This document shows positions 5,709-20,622 of a DNA stretch of 20,815 bases, in pieces. The translations under genes were made by a program, and so were the position numbers. The DNA comes from a virus, in IMG/VR virus record IMGVR_UViG_3300044614_001239, positions 1 to 20,815 of that record, one strand, 5' to 3'. The first letter of the stretch is position 1. Every line of letters starts with the position of its first letter. The notes under the pieces are model-generated. The model saw only the letters and a list, made by a program, of their open reading frames with translations. It did no database searches and was not told the origin of the DNA.

Positions 5709-5899
5709 TGAGCACCAGCATCAAACGCCGACACCCAGCCGTCCAGGCCGCCATCGAGGCCTGGGCTGAGCACCAGCGCCGAGAGGCCGCGCGCAAGTCC
5801 CTCGTCGACGACGTCATGCGCCAGCTGCGAGCGAACGCCGACGCGCGCATGAAGCGAGATGCCGCGGCTGCGATCGAGAAGGCGAAGCGCGGGCGATGA
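5708..5899 (+). CDS. Small basic helical protein before terL (63 aa)
   Basis: ATG at 5708 lies directly on the hairpin described separately. The protein is almost entirely helical and charged: HPAVQAAIEAWAEHQRREAA, then VDDVMRQLRANADARMKR and a Lys/Arg-rich end. It overlaps the large terminase start by ATGA (5896-5899), so it is probably translated together with terL. A packaging accessory role is possible given the position, but nothing in the sequence proves it. No family recognised. Confidence 0.55.
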   Translation: MSTSIKRRHPAVQAAIEAWAEHQRREAARKSLVDDVMRQLRANADARMKRDAAAAIEKAKRGR

Positions 5900-8232
5900 G
5901 CGAGAAGGACCATCGACTCGTCGGGCTGCAGCTGCTGCGGGACAATCTGGAGGTCTTCTGCGCGCACTGCCTGAAGGTCAAGGACAAGAGCGGGGCGCTG
6001 GTCCCATTCATATGGAACCGAGCCCAGCGCTTCATCCACGAAGCGCTTGAGCGCCAGAGGGCCGAAATCGGTTACGTGCGAGCGATTACGCTCAAAGGTC
6101 GGCAGCAGGGTTGTTGCTTGGCGGGCCACCATAAGGTGCTCATGGAGGACCTTTCTTGGCGCACTCTCGACAGCGTGCGCGTCGGAGATCGCCTAGTGGC
6201 CGTCGACGAGAACGTCGGCGACTCTGGCTTGACGAAGCTGGATCGCAAGACCTGCCGACGCTTCAGGATCGCGACCGTTGAGTACGTGGCTCGCTTCAGG
6301 AAGCAGGCGTTCCGGGTGCGCTTGGCCTCTGGACGCGATCTGGTGGCCACTGGCGACCATCGCATGCTTTTCAAGCAGCGCGGCGGCGTCATGACGATCT
6401 GGCGCGACATCGATTGGGCCAAGCCGGGGGACAAGATCAGGTCCGCGTTCCGCGCGCCGCCGACGCTGCTGGACTACGAAGACGGGTGGTTCGCTGGGAT
6501 CATCGATGGCGAGGGTCATCGCTCGTCGCGCGGCGAGTCCAAAGTGGCGCTCACCGTCAGCCAGGTCGAGGGGCCTGTGCTGATGCGGATGCGAGGCTGG
6601 CTGGATGCGCTCGGGGTGCGCTACTCGGAGACGGTCGATCGTCGCTGCGGCACGAGTTCAAAGCTTGGCGCCAAGCCTGTCCATCAGCTTGAGGTTGGCC
6701 GAATCGCAGACGTCGCTTACGTCATGAACCGCTGCCGCACTTCGCGCGTGCAGTTCGATGCCAGCGACCTTGAGGGCCGCAAGATCGGCGGCAATCGTGC
6801 GGTCGACGGGGGCGGTAAGCAGGAGTCATGGGACGAGATCATCTCCATCGAGCCGGTGGGCGAGATCGATGTGGTGGACCTGCAGACCTCGTCGAAGACC
6901 TTCATCGTCGATGGCTTGGTCTCCCACAACTCGACCTACATCAGCTCGCGCTACTACCACCGCACCACCACCGTCCGCGGCCAGAGCGCATTCATCGTTG
7001 CCCACGAGCAGAAGGCGACCGACAACCTATACACGATGGTGCGTCGCTACCACGACCACAACCCAATGCCGGTCAGCACCGGCGCGACCAACGCCAAGGA
7101 GCTGATCTTCGACAAGCTCGATGGCGGGTACAAGTTGGCGACAGCTGGAACGAAGGACGTGGGCCGCTCCAACACCGCTCAGCTGCTGCACGGCTCGGAG
7201 GCCGCCTTCTGGCAGAACGCCGAGGCGCACATGGCGGGCCTGGGCAACACCATCGCCGACATCCATGGCACCGAGGTCATCCTCGAGAGCACAGCCAACG
7301 GCCTGGGCAACTACTTCCACAAGCTGTGGCAGGACGCCGAGGCCGGCAAGACTAGCTACCAAGCCATCTTCGTGCCGTGGTACTGGCAGCCGGAGTATCG
7401 CGCCAAGGTGCGCAAGGACCTTGAGCTCACAGAGGAAGATGAGCAGATCCAGAAGCTGTACGGCCTTGATCTGGAGCAGATGCAGTGGCGCGCGAACAAG
7501 ATCGCCAGCTATGGCGAAGGTTTTGCTTGGCTGTTCAAGCAGGAGTACCCCCTTACAGCTTCTGAGGGTTTCCAGAGCGGCACCCAGAACCCGCTGGTCA
7601 ACCCGCACTACGTCCACGCCGCCTCTGCCAGCGACTACTACGACGAGTCCGGCGCACTGATCATCGGCTGCGACCCCGCGAGCGATGGTGCGGGCACCAA
7701 GGACCGTACCTGCATCGTCTTCCGCCGCGGCCGTGTCGTGTTCCGCGTGGAGTACCACGAGAAGCTGAACTCCATGCAGGTCGCCGGCAAGCTGGCCGAC
7801 TACTACCGCGAGTTCCACCCTGACGCGATGTTCGTCGACAAGGGCGGCATCGGCACCGGCATCGTCGACCGCCTCCAGGAGCTGAACGTCCCCGTGGTGG
7901 GTGTGATGTTCGGCCAGGCCGCCAGCGACAGCGAGATCTACGCCAACAAGAAGGCCGAGATGTGGTGGCGCATGAAGGACTGGTTCGAGGAACAGCCTGT
8001 CCGCATCGTCAACAACCCGGCGTTCATCGCCGACATCTGCGCGCCGCAGCCCGACACGTCCAGCAACGGCCGCAAGCTGCTCGAGCCGAAGGAGAAGCTC
8101 GAGAAGCGCGGCATCCGCAGCCCTGACGGCGGCGACGCTCTGGCGCTCACGTTCACCGAGTTCGTTCTGCCGAAGCACATGAGCGGCGGCGGCGGCAAGA
8201 ACTACGAGGCGGCCTCGAAGGCTGGCTACTGA
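5896..8232 (+). CDS. terL: Large terminase subunit, intein-interrupted
   Basis: The 778-residue precursor becomes a 506-residue terminase once residues 74-345 (intein) are removed. The ATP-binding loop is built from KGRQQGC (67-73) joined to ST (346-347), the usual phage form of motif I. HGSEAAFW with Glu435 gives the Walker B position, and ESTANG (from 464) the coupling motif. The RuvC-like nuclease domain shows GCDPA (Asp593), MFVDKGG (Asp648) and SPDGGDAL (Asp744/Asp747). The enzyme pumps and cuts DNA at the capsid portal. The start overlaps the previous gene by ATGA; the ribosome site is weak, so coupling is likely. Without splicing the ATP loop is broken, so the protein should be inactive before splicing. 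Confidence 0.95.
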   Translation: MSEKDHRLVGLQLLRDNLEVFCAHCLKVKDKSGALVPFIWNRAQRFIHEALERQRAEIGYVRAITLKGRQQGCCLAGHHKVLMEDLSWRTLDSVRVGDRLVAVDENVGDSGLTKLDRKTCRRFRIATVEYVARFRKQAFRVRLASGRDLVATGDHRMLFKQRGGVMTIWRDIDWAKPGDKIRSAFRAPPTLLDYEDGWFAGIIDGEGHRSSRGESKVALTVSQVEGPVLMRMRGWLDALGVRYSETVDRRCGTSSKLGAKPVHQLEVGRIADVAYVMNRCRTSRVQFDASDLEGRKIGGNRAVDGGGKQESWDEIISIEPVGEIDVVDLQTSSKTFIVDGLVSHNSTYISSRYYHRTTTVRGQSAFIVAHEQKATDNLYTMVRRYHDHNPMPVSTGATNAKELIFDKLDGGYKLATAGTKDVGRSNTAQLLHGSEAAFWQNAEAHMAGLGNTIADIHGTEVILESTANGLGNYFHKLWQDAEAGKTSYQAIFVPWYWQPEYRAKVRKDLELTEEDEQIQKLYGLDLEQMQWRANKIASYGEGFAWLFKQEYPLTASEGFQSGTQNPLVNPHYVHAASASDYYDESGALIIGCDPASDGAGTKDRTCIVFRRGRVVFRVEYHEKLNSMQVAGKLADYYREFHPDAMFVDKGGIGTGIVDRLQELNVPVVGVMFGQAASDSEIYANKKAEMWWRMKDWFEEQPVRIVNNPAFIADICAPQPDTSSNGRKLLEPKEKLEKRGIRSPDGGDALALTFTEFVLPKHMSGGGGKNYEAASKAGY
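6115..6930 (+). mobile_element. Intein with LAGLIDADG homing endonuclease domain
   Basis: This 272-codon insert starts at Cys74 of the terminase precursor (CLAGHHKVL, block A), has a block B GRDLVATGDHRMLF, and ends with block F/G features TFIVDGLVSHN before Ser346. All splicing residues are present: Cys1, the TxxH motif (T-G-D-H), penultimate His, last Asn and +1 Ser. Between the splicing blocks, GWFAGIIDGEGH (precursor 197-208) is a LAGLIDADG motif with its acidic residues, followed by strand and helix segments for one such domain. I see only one motif, so the endonuclease would act as a dimer or be decayed. The start is set at the second Cys of the CC pair because terminases carry one residue between QQG and ST. 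Confidence 0.93.
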
Positions 8233-14646: not shown

Positions 14647-16083
14647 ATGCCTACCACCAACGGCAACCGCAAGATCCTCGATCTCAAGCGCTGGGAGTTC
14701 TGCGCCCCGCTGCCCGCCGCGACTGCGGCGGCGCACTGCGTCGTGTCCAGCAGGCACTACCGTCAGCAGCAACTGCTGGTGCAGAGCAACACCTCCGCGT
14801 TTTTGTACAGCCCGCTGGAAGACGGCTTCATTCAGGTGCCATCGCCGGCCCTGGCCGGCACGTTCGGCGCGGGTGCCACGGGCACGGCCGCCAGCTTCAG
14901 CACCGGCGCCACCGTCGGCGCATCGAGCCTGACGGCCACGGCCGGCACGGTCAACGGAATCACCACTAACCAGACCCTGGCCCGCGATCTGCGCGGCTAC
15001 TCGGTGCTGTTCGTGGGCGGCACCAACGCCGGCCGGCTCAAGACCATCGCATCCAACACCATCGGGCCGAACGCGGTCATCACGTTCGAGGGCGCCGAGG
15101 CGGTGGCCTTCGACAACACCAGCCAGTACCGGCTCAAGACCCCGGTGTTCTTCGTGGTCGGCGCGGGCACGTTGGCGGCGGGCAGCTTCCGGAAATACTG
15201 CTTCGCCACCAACACCTGGGCGACGCTGGCTCACACCGGCCTGCCCGCCAGCTTGGGCACAGACGGCAAGATGTGCGGCACACCGGCTTGGATCGACGGC
15301 GGGTTCAAGGGCTTCGCCACCGGCACCGCCACGTCTGCCACCGGCACGACGCTGTCGAACAGCGCGAAGACCTGGACCACGAACCAGTGGGCCAATTCCC
15401 AGGTCCGCATCACTGCGGGCACGGGGCAAGGCCAGATCAGGACAGTCGCATCCAACACCGGCACCACGCTGACCGTCAGCGCAGCCTGGACGACGACGCC
15501 CGACGCGACCAGCCAGTACAGCATCGAGGGCAACGACGATTTTCTGTATTACTTGGGGAGCAACGCGGTCACGATGTACCGGTACAGCATCTCCAGCAAC
15601 ACATGGACAACGCTGGCGCCCACGGCAGCGCGTGGCGGCGCTCCTGGCGCGGGCATGTCGGGCCACTGGATTCACAGCGTTACGGACGCCGACTGGAACA
15701 ACGAAAGCGCGATTCGCAACGGGCGCTACCTCTATTCGTTCCGCGGCGCTGCGGGTGCCTTACTCGACCGCTACGACATCGCCCTGAACACCTGGGAGGC
15801 CGTGAGCTACTCGCCGGCCGCGGAAACCTTCGCCGCGGGCACGAAGTACGCCTACTGTAAAGATCGCCTCTACATTCAAAAAGAGGCCACCGGCCGCTGG
15901 TTCGCTTTCGACTTTGCCGAGTTCGCCATGCAGCCCTGGAGCACCATGACGTACACGCAAGGTGCGGCGGTGTTGGGTGACACCGCATTCGACGCGACCT
16001 ACAAGGACGGGGCGACCGAGATCGACTACATCTACATTGGACTCAACACCAGCACGGTGATGCTGCGGCAGATGGTGGTGTGA
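14647..16083 (+). CDS. Propeller-like virion protein with duplicated domain (478 aa)
   Basis: ATG at 14647, one base after the previous stop. Residues about 79-163 and 226-293 are two copies of a beta module: a GTA-x-S start, a TLS/SLT-type strand, an NQ...RI/LF-x-GG or GTG turn, an RTVASNT/KTIASNT core, and a D-x-TSQY-x-I/L end. The module is common in phage tail proteins and resembles a small beta barrel. Around it, kelch-like blades appear: FRKYCFATNTWATLAHTG, MYRYSISSNTWTTLAPT and LDRYDIALNTWEAVSY, each with the Y-N-TW pattern. The protein is probably a trimeric or propeller-shaped tail or baseplate component. Confidence 0.7.
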   Translation: MPTTNGNRKILDLKRWEFCAPLPAATAAAHCVVSSRHYRQQQLLVQSNTSAFLYSPLEDGFIQVPSPALAGTFGAGATGTAASFSTGATVGASSLTATAGTVNGITTNQTLARDLRGYSVLFVGGTNAGRLKTIASNTIGPNAVITFEGAEAVAFDNTSQYRLKTPVFFVVGAGTLAAGSFRKYCFATNTWATLAHTGLPASLGTDGKMCGTPAWIDGGFKGFATGTATSATGTTLSNSAKTWTTNQWANSQVRITAGTGQGQIRTVASNTGTTLTVSAAWTTTPDATSQYSIEGNDDFLYYLGSNAVTMYRYSISSNTWTTLAPTAARGGAPGAGMSGHWIHSVTDADWNNESAIRNGRYLYSFRGAAGALLDRYDIALNTWEAVSYSPAAETFAAGTKYAYCKDRLYIQKEATGRWFAFDFAEFAMQPWSTMTYTQGAAVLGDTAFDATYKDGATEIDYIYIGLNTSTVMLRQMVV

Positions 16084-16851: not shown

Positions 16852-19800
16852 ATGGCCACGCCACAGTCAGACCTCTACTCGGCCGCATCAGGGCCGATCT
16901 ACGCCGGCCGGGCTGCGCCATCGGCGCCTCCGCCTCCTCCGGCCCCAAGCCTCACTCTGAGCTCAGACGGAGCGGCCACCGTGGGGGTTGCCGAGGCGCT
17001 GACTGTCACTGCAGCCAACATCACCGCACCCGCATCGGTGACCGTGGCGCGCGTAAGCGGCCCGGCCGCGACCATCGACCCCGTGCCCGTCACGCCCGCC
17101 CCCGGCGAGCTGACGAAGCTGGCCTACGCCACAGCGGCTGCCGTCGGAACTCTGAGGCTGCAGGCCTCTGCCACCATCAGCGGCAGCCTGGTGCAGTCCA
17201 ACGCCGTGGACATCGTGGTGAGCGCGGCGCCAACGCCGCCGCCGCCGCCTCCGCCTCCGCCGCCAGCGGCCGGCACGACGATCACCGCCCTGGCGCTCAA
17301 TGCCACGACCACCGGGACGCACCCGTGGGCCTGCGGCCACGCATTCCGACAGGGCGATCTGCCATCTGGCACCTCGCTTGCCGGGGTGCAGTGCATTGTG
17401 TTGACCACCTGGCCAGACAACTCGGCCAAGTTCGCCGTCTTGGCCGGCTCCACGGCGCTTACCGCCAACGTCGACGCGACGGTCAACCTCACCACCGGCA
17501 TCGCCCCGGCCGGCGCGGCCCTGACCACGGCCAACTTGCCCGCCATGACGGCCGTAATCGCCGGCAGCGTGAGCGGGTCTGCCACGTTCACCGGTGCGGA
17601 CTGGGTCAGCCCGTTCCGCACGGTCGTCACCGGCCCGCTAATGTCGTCCTGGGTCTACCGCAAGACCATCGACGCCACGCTGCACGCCTACGTCGAGGTA
17701 CGGCTGTGGGCAGGCGGGGCTGTGGAGGTGCTGCCCTGGTTGGAGAACGGCTACGTCATGGTGGCCGGCGCGACCAGCCGCAACGAGACGTGGACCTTCG
17801 ATCTGGGCGGCACGCAGCGCGAGAGCATCACGTTGGACTTCTGCGGCCGTCAGCGCCTGTACCTGCTGACGGGCACGAAGCTCGCGCACTGGCTGGCGAC
17901 TGACCCGGACGTGTTCATCCGGCACAGCGCCGCGTACATCGAGGCCACCAAGCTGGTCCCGAACTATTCCGCGACGAGCCCTGACAGCGCGATCACCTCG
18001 TGGTCCGAGAGCATCACCAGCCCGCACGAGCAGGGTCTGTACCCCAACGGCATGGGGGCTGGTGGATACCACCTGTCCATCGGCCTGCTGCCTCGCTGGG
18101 ACGCCATGGTCTACACCAACGGCAGCCGCAAGGCATACCGCGTGGCCCAGCAGCACGCCTACCGCGCTGGCCGCTATGGCGTCTACTACCGCGACGAAAA
18201 CACCCTGAGCCCGCCGCGCTTGCTGGACCACGCGACGCGGATCATCGGCAACAGCAGCGCGGGCATCGGTGACACCGGATCGGGTGCGTCTCAGAGCGCC
18301 ACGCAGACCGGCTCAGTGCCGCCCACTTGGAAAGTGTCGCACCTCCCGTCAATGGGGTTTGTGTCCGCCTTGATCTCGGGCCGCTGGTGCCACATCGAGA
18401 CGGCGCAGTTCAACGCTTCGTTGGCGATGATGCACGCCAGCACGTCATTCCGCCAGAACGGCGACGGCGTGCTTCAGACCTTCTCGTACCTTCAGGTGCG
18501 GGGAGTCGCCTGGGCACTGCGCGCCATCGCGCAAGCCGCGGCCATCAGCCCCGACGATGACCCGCTGCAAGCCGAGTTCGAGCGGCAACTGTCGAACACC
18601 GCCGCGTTCAACCACTCGCGCTACGTGGCCCAGTCCAGTCACCCGTTTGGCTGGATGAACTCGATCCTGCCGGGCTTGACGGACGGCTACACGCCGGGCA
18701 CGACGCCGCCCCTAGCCGCGGCATCGTGGATGCAGGACTTCGTCACGGCGGCGGTGGGCTACGCCCGTCACCTGACAGGCGACGGCATCGCCGAGGCCGC
18801 CAAGCTCGCGGGCTGGTTCGAGTTTCTCGGCAAGTCTGTCGCCACGCGGACCACCGACGACTTCAGCGCAGCCGGCTACCCTTACCGCTACGCTGGCGCG
18901 TTCGCCTTCGGCACCGCGGCGCAGGACAACGCCAACTGGAACGACGGCAGCGGCCCGTGGCCCGCAACGCCAGGTGACATGTGGCGCTGGACGTGGGCCG
19001 AGCCCTCTGGCGCCGAGTCGTCGTTCACCGCGCTGTGGAGCCAGCAGCCCGGATGCAGCGCCCCGCCGACCAAAGAGCTTGGCGACGGCTCGCTGCTGTT
19101 CGGCGGCATTGGTAGCGTCGGCAGCTACTGGCACAACCTGATGCCCGCGCTGTCGTACTGCGCGGAGTTTGGGATCCCTGGCGCCGCGGCCGGCTACCAG
19201 CGCGTCGTGAGCGCTCCGAACTTCGCCAGCGGTGTCGCAGCACAAGACGCGGGCGACCCGACTTGGGCCGTGCGCGCCAGGTCAACAGAAACATGGGGTG
19301 CGGGCTCCGAACTCGGCACCCTGGTGGGCGATGTCTGGACGCCAGGCCGCGATGCTCAAGGGCGCGTCAATCTGGCGTCCTGGAACACCGTGCCCACGGG
19401 CCGATGGATCGAGGTGGGTGGCTCGCGCATCGACACGCAGCTCACGGCCGCCGTCCAGGCCGTTTCCGCCGGGTGGAGCCTGCAGCAACTCTGGGGCTTC
19501 TCGAACTCGTCCAACCTGATGCAGTCGTGGTCTGGCTTCACGATTGACCAGGCGAACGCGCGACTGTGGTTCCTCGGCGGCGGCCACTCTGACGGCTACA
19601 ACAATGGGCTGTACCGGTTCGACTTCTACCGGATGCAGTGGGCCATCGAATGCCCGCCTAGCCCGCGCTCAACCATGAGCACGGCCTACCTCACCAACGG
19701 GAGCAGCACCAACCACCCTCAGAGCACCGCCACGGCGGCGGCCAACTTCAACGCAAACAACGCGGCGGGGCTGACGACTGGCGTTCTGGTGCCAGCCCTG

Positions 19801-20622
19801 AACGGGCCGATGTACGACGAGATCCCCACCGACGGCAAGCCCACGGCGCGGCACAGCTATCAGGGCTTGGTGTACGTGCCGACCGTTGGCGCTCAAGGGT
19901 CGGTGTTCATGCACGCACGGCGCCTGTGGCGGTACGACATCGCCACGGGACAGTGGGTCCTCAAGCGCCTGGTCAACGATCAGATTCGCAGCACTGGGGG
20001 CGCCGCGCCGAACGCCACTGGCGTCATTGAAATTCACGCCGCCGAGCAGTCTCTGGCGATCTGGGATGAGGCTACGAACCGGGTGCTGTGCAGCGCCTCC
20101 GGGTCGGCGGGTCAGGGCGCCTACGCCTACAACTGGAACACACAGACGTGGGCGGGCTGGAGCGGCGTCTACGGCCTTAACTTCAATGACGCGGCTGTGG
20201 TGCGGCAGGGTCGCACGGTGGTGTCTTTCAACGCCCCCGCCGCAACCGGCGGACGGGCAGGGCGCTACTGGGTTCACAACCTGGACACGGGCGTCACCGC
20301 AACTGGCACCGACGTGCAGCTCGGTGGCGGCCTGACGCGGGCCAACTTCCAGCCGGCCGACGCCTTCTACGACGCGTACTCGATGGTCTACGTGCCGCCG
20401 CTGAATCGGTACTGGGTCTGGACGCGCAACAACGTGGGCGGCATGCAAGCGCTGCAACTTGACCCGACCACGACACCGTGGACTCTATCCCCGCTGAGTT
20501 TTGCCAACGCGAGCCCGATTCAAGAGCGACTTGCACAGGGTCGCACTCACTGGATTGAGGCTCTGAACGCGGTGCTGGTGTGGGACCACTGCTTCGTCGG
20601 CGCGAAGCTCTACAAGTTCTGA
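16852..20622 (+). CDS. Giant multidomain tail fibre/spike candidate (1256 aa)
   Basis: ATG at 16852 is the first possible start after an in-frame TAA at 16840. Residues 31-125 form an Ig-like beta domain. A run of ten prolines (about 129-138) is a linker. Residues about 143-370 resemble the RIFT-barrel entry domain of PcRGLX/YetA-type rhamnogalacturonan lyase-like proteins (AFRQGDLPSG, then TWPDNSAKFAVLAG). About 380-800 is a large aromatic helical region (RVAQQHAYRAGRYGVYYRD, WMQDFVTAAVGYARHL), suitable for an alpha/alpha toroid. From about 843 a kelch-like propeller begins (WNTVPTGRWIEVGG; GGGHSDGYNNGLYRFDFY near 907). Such a layout suits a receptor-binding spike that holds or cuts surface polysaccharide. 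Catalytic residues cannot be assigned by eye. Confidence 0.7.
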   Translation: MATPQSDLYSAASGPIYAGRAAPSAPPPPPAPSLTLSSDGAATVGVAEALTVTAANITAPASVTVARVSGPAATIDPVPVTPAPGELTKLAYATAAAVGTLRLQASATISGSLVQSNAVDIVVSAAPTPPPPPPPPPPAAGTTITALALNATTTGTHPWACGHAFRQGDLPSGTSLAGVQCIVLTTWPDNSAKFAVLAGSTALTANVDATVNLTTGIAPAGAALTTANLPAMTAVIAGSVSGSATFTGADWVSPFRTVVTGPLMSSWVYRKTIDATLHAYVEVRLWAGGAVEVLPWLENGYVMVAGATSRNETWTFDLGGTQRESITLDFCGRQRLYLLTGTKLAHWLATDPDVFIRHSAAYIEATKLVPNYSATSPDSAITSWSESITSPHEQGLYPNGMGAGGYHLSIGLLPRWDAMVYTNGSRKAYRVAQQHAYRAGRYGVYYRDENTLSPPRLLDHATRIIGNSSAGIGDTGSGASQSATQTGSVPPTWKVSHLPSMGFVSALISGRWCHIETAQFNASLAMMHASTSFRQNGDGVLQTFSYLQVRGVAWALRAIAQAAAISPDDDPLQAEFERQLSNTAAFNHSRYVAQSSHPFGWMNSILPGLTDGYTPGTTPPLAAASWMQDFVTAAVGYARHLTGDGIAEAAKLAGWFEFLGKSVATRTTDDFSAAGYPYRYAGAFAFGTAAQDNANWNDGSGPWPATPGDMWRWTWAEPSGAESSFTALWSQQPGCSAPPTKELGDGSLLFGGIGSVGSYWHNLMPALSYCAEFGIPGAAAGYQRVVSAPNFASGVAAQDAGDPTWAVRARSTETWGAGSELGTLVGDVWTPGRDAQGRVNLASWNTVPTGRWIEVGGSRIDTQLTAAVQAVSAGWSLQQLWGFSNSSNLMQSWSGFTIDQANARLWFLGGGHSDGYNNGLYRFDFYRMQWAIECPPSPRSTMSTAYLTNGSSTNHPQSTATAAANFNANNAAGLTTGVLVPALNGPMYDEIPTDGKPTARHSYQGLVYVPTVGAQGSVFMHARRLWRYDIATGQWVLKRLVNDQIRSTGGAAPNATGVIEIHAAEQSLAIWDEATNRVLCSASGSAGQGAYAYNWNTQTWAGWSGVYGLNFNDAAVVRQGRTVVSFNAPAATGGRAGRYWVHNLDTGVTATGTDVQLGGGLTRANFQPADAFYDAYSMVYVPPLNRYWVWTRNNVGGMQALQLDPTTTPWTLSPLSFANASPIQERLAQGRTHWIEALNAVLVWDHCFVGAKLYKF

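Follow-up and report, generated by a model that had tools for sequence, protein, structure and literature searches.

What is a 272-residue insert doing within the ATP-binding loop of a phage large terminase, and by which route did it come there? The question is raised by one gene of the window, i.e., the 20,815-nucleotide virus record analyzed here, in which the original prediction, made from the letters of the sequence, had recognized an intein. According to our reading, to which a probability of about 0.9 is given, this is a class 1 intein that is mobile, encloses a LAGLIDADG endonuclease with a single motif and interrupts the Walker A loop of the terminase; we infer that it splices, that its endonuclease cleaves DNA and that the unspliced precursor is inactive.

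The intein-containing gene of the large terminase subunit occupies positions 5896..8232 of the plus strand, on which all its parts described below are located, and encodes a precursor of 778 aa, within which the intein lies in frame; there is one copy of it in the window. The N-extein (5896..6114) can be aligned without gaps to intein-free relatives and ends in the first part of the P-loop, KGRQQGC (residues 67-73; 6094-6114). It is followed by the intein (272 aa, residues 74-345; 6115..6930) and by the C-extein (6931..8232), that starts with +1 Ser and the P-loop Thr (6931-6936) and comprises the remaining part of the ATPase domain and the nuclease domain, as indicated by gapless alignment and the profile of T4 gp17. 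The spliced product would have 506 aa (778-272), and the original prediction was right to the residue in the intein coordinates, its residues and this length.

The motifs which it had named, namely Cys1, T-G-D-H, terminal His-Asn and +1 Ser, were all located in the open reading frame. The N-terminal nucleophile of a class 1 intein is Cys74, i.e., intein Cys1 (6115-6117), and a Cys is found here in 39/39 distinct members of the P-loop family presented further below. Block B has the Thr-x-x-His motif as TGDH (6349..6360), with TxxH or SxxH in 39/39 members, while the C-terminal splicing blocks F and G, DLQTSSKTFIVDGLVSHN (6877..6930), end with VSHN, so that the junction reads VSHN/ST (a slash marks the intein border here and below); HN is present in 39/39 members. 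The profile search for a Hint domain returned Intein_splicing (Pfam) with E 5e-6 for the window, which for this member falls short of the curated cut-off, and the same profile matches 7/7 family members (best E 3e-9). TIGR01445 (intein_Nterm) gave 0.003 with the window, and NF038136 (NCBIfam) matches it at 1.5e-14 through the intein part of that model. The profile matches of the window intein are not due to chance. The AlphaFold2 model of the intein, for which the input was only a two-sequence alignment, has a pLDDT of 33.6.

The exact junction is shown by the intein-free relatives, since more than 20 IMG/VR loci run without gaps through KGRQQG-x-ST, with QQG and ST separated by a single residue, and thus provide the precise in-frame empty site. 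The x residue is Cys in L003 and L017 and Ile, Val, Ala or Gly elsewhere; L003 is the closest intein-free relative (extein identity 87%). It follows from this alignment that Cys73 is an extein residue and the intein begins at Cys74. Two further loci, L002 and L026, which share an identical terminase gene, have an intein at the site of the window that is 65% identical and is preceded by Ala. Compared with the window, their terminase is a mosaic, with ~60% identity in the middle but ~98% in the last third, a pattern that suggests intragenic recombination.

Is the interrupted protein indeed a large terminase? None of the Pfam terminase models matched the intein-free relatives; the host protein is identified through PHROG, the profile match to gp17 and the fold. 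An intein-free relative has a match in PHROG 2 (terminase large subunit), and when 17 relatives were combined into a profile, T4 gp17 (E 4e-6) and the phage E217 nuclease domain were matched. The structure predicted for the L003 protein (pLDDT 80) has T4 gp17 (E 1e-17), Sf6 gp2 and the HK97 terminases among its fold matches, so the intein-free relative possesses both the ATPase and the nuclease domain of the terminase fold. In the gp17 alignment SRQLGKTT is paired with GRQQGxST, and the insert falls between the equivalents of Lys166 and Thr167 (numbers are chain positions within the profile alignment). Both the terminase host and the split between the two halves of the P-loop were thus correctly foreseen. 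The position of the Walker A lysine is occupied by a residue other than Lys in this terminase family, by Cys73 in the window, and Lys67, with which the motif begins, does not vary in the alignment. An early lysine in the Walker A motif is known from other terminases. The window also contains a terminase small subunit (PHROG 1206; 2060-2677), ~3.2 kb ahead of the large subunit and with several frames between them, as well as two frames with Kelch-repeat matches in the structural region (14647-16083 and 16852-20622), one of which has 1256 aa.

The original prediction made no mention of an endonuclease domain. Approximately 120 residues of the intein (6451..6810, limits approximate) contain a single LAGLIDADG-type motif with its acidic residue, WFAGIIDGEG (6487-6516), that is conserved across the family. 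The matches of Pfam LAGLIDADG_3/Hom_end in the window intein are weak; yet, at this P-loop position L120 (904-1431) and L183 have a mini-intein of 176 aa from which only the endonuclease block is gone, and in the intein of L177 the motif is degraded. Against L026, dN/dS comes to 0.35 and 0.26 in the N-terminal and C-terminal splicing parts, respectively, to 0.18 in the endonuclease and to 0.24 in the adjoining C-extein; the values are rough because dS is high. By this rough measure (~0.18) the endonuclease part looks conserved and gives no sign of decay.

The following mechanism can be proposed. The intein sits between Cys73, which takes the place of the Walker A lysine, and the Ser-Thr pair that is expected to coordinate Mg-ATP. 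It would most likely excise itself post-translationally by the class 1 pathway, i.e., an acyl shift at Cys1, transfer to Ser+1 and Asn cyclization, and splicing would restore KGRQQGCSTYI, yielding the 506-aa ATPase-nuclease. The unspliced precursor should be inactive in packaging, and it is very likely, as a sound deduction, that splicing has to precede packaging. During mixed infections the endonuclease probably cuts the corresponding conserved codons of terminase genes that lack the intein, and cleavage of such empty alleles would allow the element to spread, while its location in an essential loop would make imprecise loss costly.

The window intein belongs to a larger family. When the window intein was used as a query, alone or together with its sister, only the sister records were found; the family emerged only with an alignment of seven inteins as the query, which gave 59 loci. 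The intein directly follows KxRQxG or KxRQxGx in 47 loci (window counted), 39 of them distinct, and the +1 residue of the distinct P-loop inteins is Ser in 34, Thr in 3 and Cys in 2. Pattern matches in L121, L123, L125 and L126 were rejected as chance, being short frames with no intein. The P-loop inteins constitute one clade (99/96) of the intein tree, separate from relatives in other proteins, and the terminases that host them include close relatives as well as proteins that can hardly be aligned. Inteins of the same lineage are inserted one residue upstream in L157, L158 and L165 (KGRQQG/C...HN/CTTY), which recalls the TerL1-a/b pair. Relatives of the window intein were also seen in an apparent uracil-DNA glycosylase and an apparent family A DNA polymerase (L176 and L180; GEAPGRNEVEQGRPF/C and WELVSFDY/C...HN/SQIEMRLM, respectively). 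A close terminase relative, L023 (4174-8106; 1310-aa frame), has no P-loop intein but is interrupted elsewhere by two inteins of 367 and 355 aa; their sites are the Walker B region (LLHG/C...SN/SEFGFW) and the position after QEYPA (QEYPA/C...HN/TAALAF).

How did the inteins come to be distributed in this way? Their presence is patchy and requires at least 5-7 gains or losses on the host trees. The clade of the window includes 29 terminases, only 2 of which contain the intein, and the nearest terminase by tree, L003, lacks it; the window intein itself clusters with inteins from another terminase clade (99/96, intein tree). Patchy presence and partly discordant intein and host trees are what is expected for a mobile allele family, and horizontal spread across the P-loop family is likely, whereas for the window intein itself it is suggested, short of proof. 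One may ask whether the intein was instead ancestral in these terminases and was inherited mostly vertically, with many losses and little recent homing. The single clade that unites all P-loop inteins would fit such a history, as would the divergence between the window and L026 inteins, comparable to that of the neighboring N-extein, and the host-monophyly test (single host clade; conflict of host and intein trees), which was borderline (p 0.063). However, the rarity of the intein in the window's clade and the endonuclease without decay argue against it, and so do L142 and L156, sister terminases whose inteins belong to different supported clades, although long branches call for caution here. 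We consider the mostly vertical history unlikely, at about one chance in five. The clade that contains the window also includes sequences of Cupriavidus, Janthinobacterium, Polaromonas, Hydrogenophaga and Polynucleobacter, and on the basis of these genera the window phage probably infects Burkholderiales.

It was also proposed in the original prediction that splicing may respond to redox or metal state through Cys1 and Cys73; in such a switch, a Cys73-Cys1 disulfide formed upon oxidation, or metal binding, would delay packaging until conditions change. The adjacent Cys pair at the junction invites this idea, and sensitivity to oxidation is known for DnaBi1, a P-loop intein from M. smegmatis (PMC6195587). 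The raw counts seem to agree, since within the KGRQ group Cys is present in 16/24 intein-bearing and 5/79 intein-free terminases, but this excess stems mostly from one clade. Of seven independent pairs in which one partner has the intein and the other lacks it, ~2.4 have the Cys on the intein-bearing side and 0.4 on the intein-free side, whereas the partners do not differ in the Cys in 4.2, which is not significant. The residue at -1 of the 39 P-loop inteins is C in 14, M in 10, A in 6, F in 4, G in 3, I in 1 and V in 1, the sister allele having Ala; conversely, Cys occurs at this position in 5/73 distinct intein-free segments (the intein-free terminases L003, L017, L048, L053 and L055). A partner Cys conserved along with the intein was not seen among the 39 alleles, the phylogenetically corrected association being not significant. 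Moreover, a disulfide that joins adjacent residues is strained. A redox gate via Cys73 is therefore not supported by the sequences compared, it is possible in single lineages, and as the explanation of this locus the switch appears improbable. The same low credence is given to the broader proposition that a large undescribed P-loop intein family has spread among divergent environmental phage terminases via K[GA]RQxGx/ST codons and, in addition, that lineages with -1 Cys, including the window phage, conditionally hold back packaging by splicing.

That the terminase gene is dead and the insert does not splice, which could be entertained insofar as splicing of the window intein is deduced from its sequence, is the least probable of all, because the catalytic residues are all intact, the frame is open from end to end, dN/dS against L026 (rough, with high dS) is low in intein and extein alike and the terminase gene is essential in tailed phages.

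Of the original account, the intein, its terminase host and the exact junction stand; the Cys gate is unsupported, and the implied novelty of a split within the P-loop is wrong. In mycobacteriophages the terminase is the commonest host of inteins, and among the P-loop inteins of the phage large terminase TerL1-a lies between the invariant P-loop Lys and Thr, with TerL1-b one residue off (PMC5050341). The insert of the window is found at the structural position of TerL1-a, as given by the gp17 alignment, and this placement was thus already known, although the Lys itself is Cys in the window. The two differ in that TerL1-a resides in Terminase_1 of actinophages with the Lys present, whereas the window's host is a distinct terminase family in which the Lys is absent, the intein-free relatives have no Pfam terminase match and the phages are probably those of Burkholderiales; TerL1-a was not seen among the intein matches in phage records. 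Assays demonstrated splicing for five terminase inteins and cleavage of empty alleles for two (PMC5050341).

The closest relatives from isolated phages are the Pham3880-g inteins of C1 mycobacteriophages (e.g., LinStu gp250, ScottMcG gp245), which are ~30% identical over the full 272 aa and likewise have a single LAGLIDADG-type motif; the ScottMcG intein splices in a reporter assay (PMC5050341). However, Pham3880-g sits at the end of the ATPase domain of a terminase-like protein, outside the P-loop. M. smegmatis DnaBi1 shares the P-loop site, with the P-loop Ser doubling as the +1 splicing residue, but is a class 3 mini-intein of the DnaB helicase, and its oxidative sensitivity is experimental (PMC6195587). 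Cyanophage Mic1 has two terminase inteins, for which control of packaging was proposed by the authors, but their sites are in the ATPase and nuclease domains, with +1 Thr and Cys (PMC7156551).

The window intein joins the terminase P-loop inteins described before and extends the picture by the size of its family and the spread of that family outside actinophages, of which no description was found in the literature searched (few subscription papers were covered). Since full, degenerate and endonuclease-free forms occur at one site, these alleles lend themselves well to tests of homing between phages and to the question of whether P-loop inteins act as switches or are no more than parasites. As a non-actinophage case, probably from a Burkholderiales phage, the intein described here extends the range of the terminase P-loop inteins known from TerL1-a and TerL1-b.
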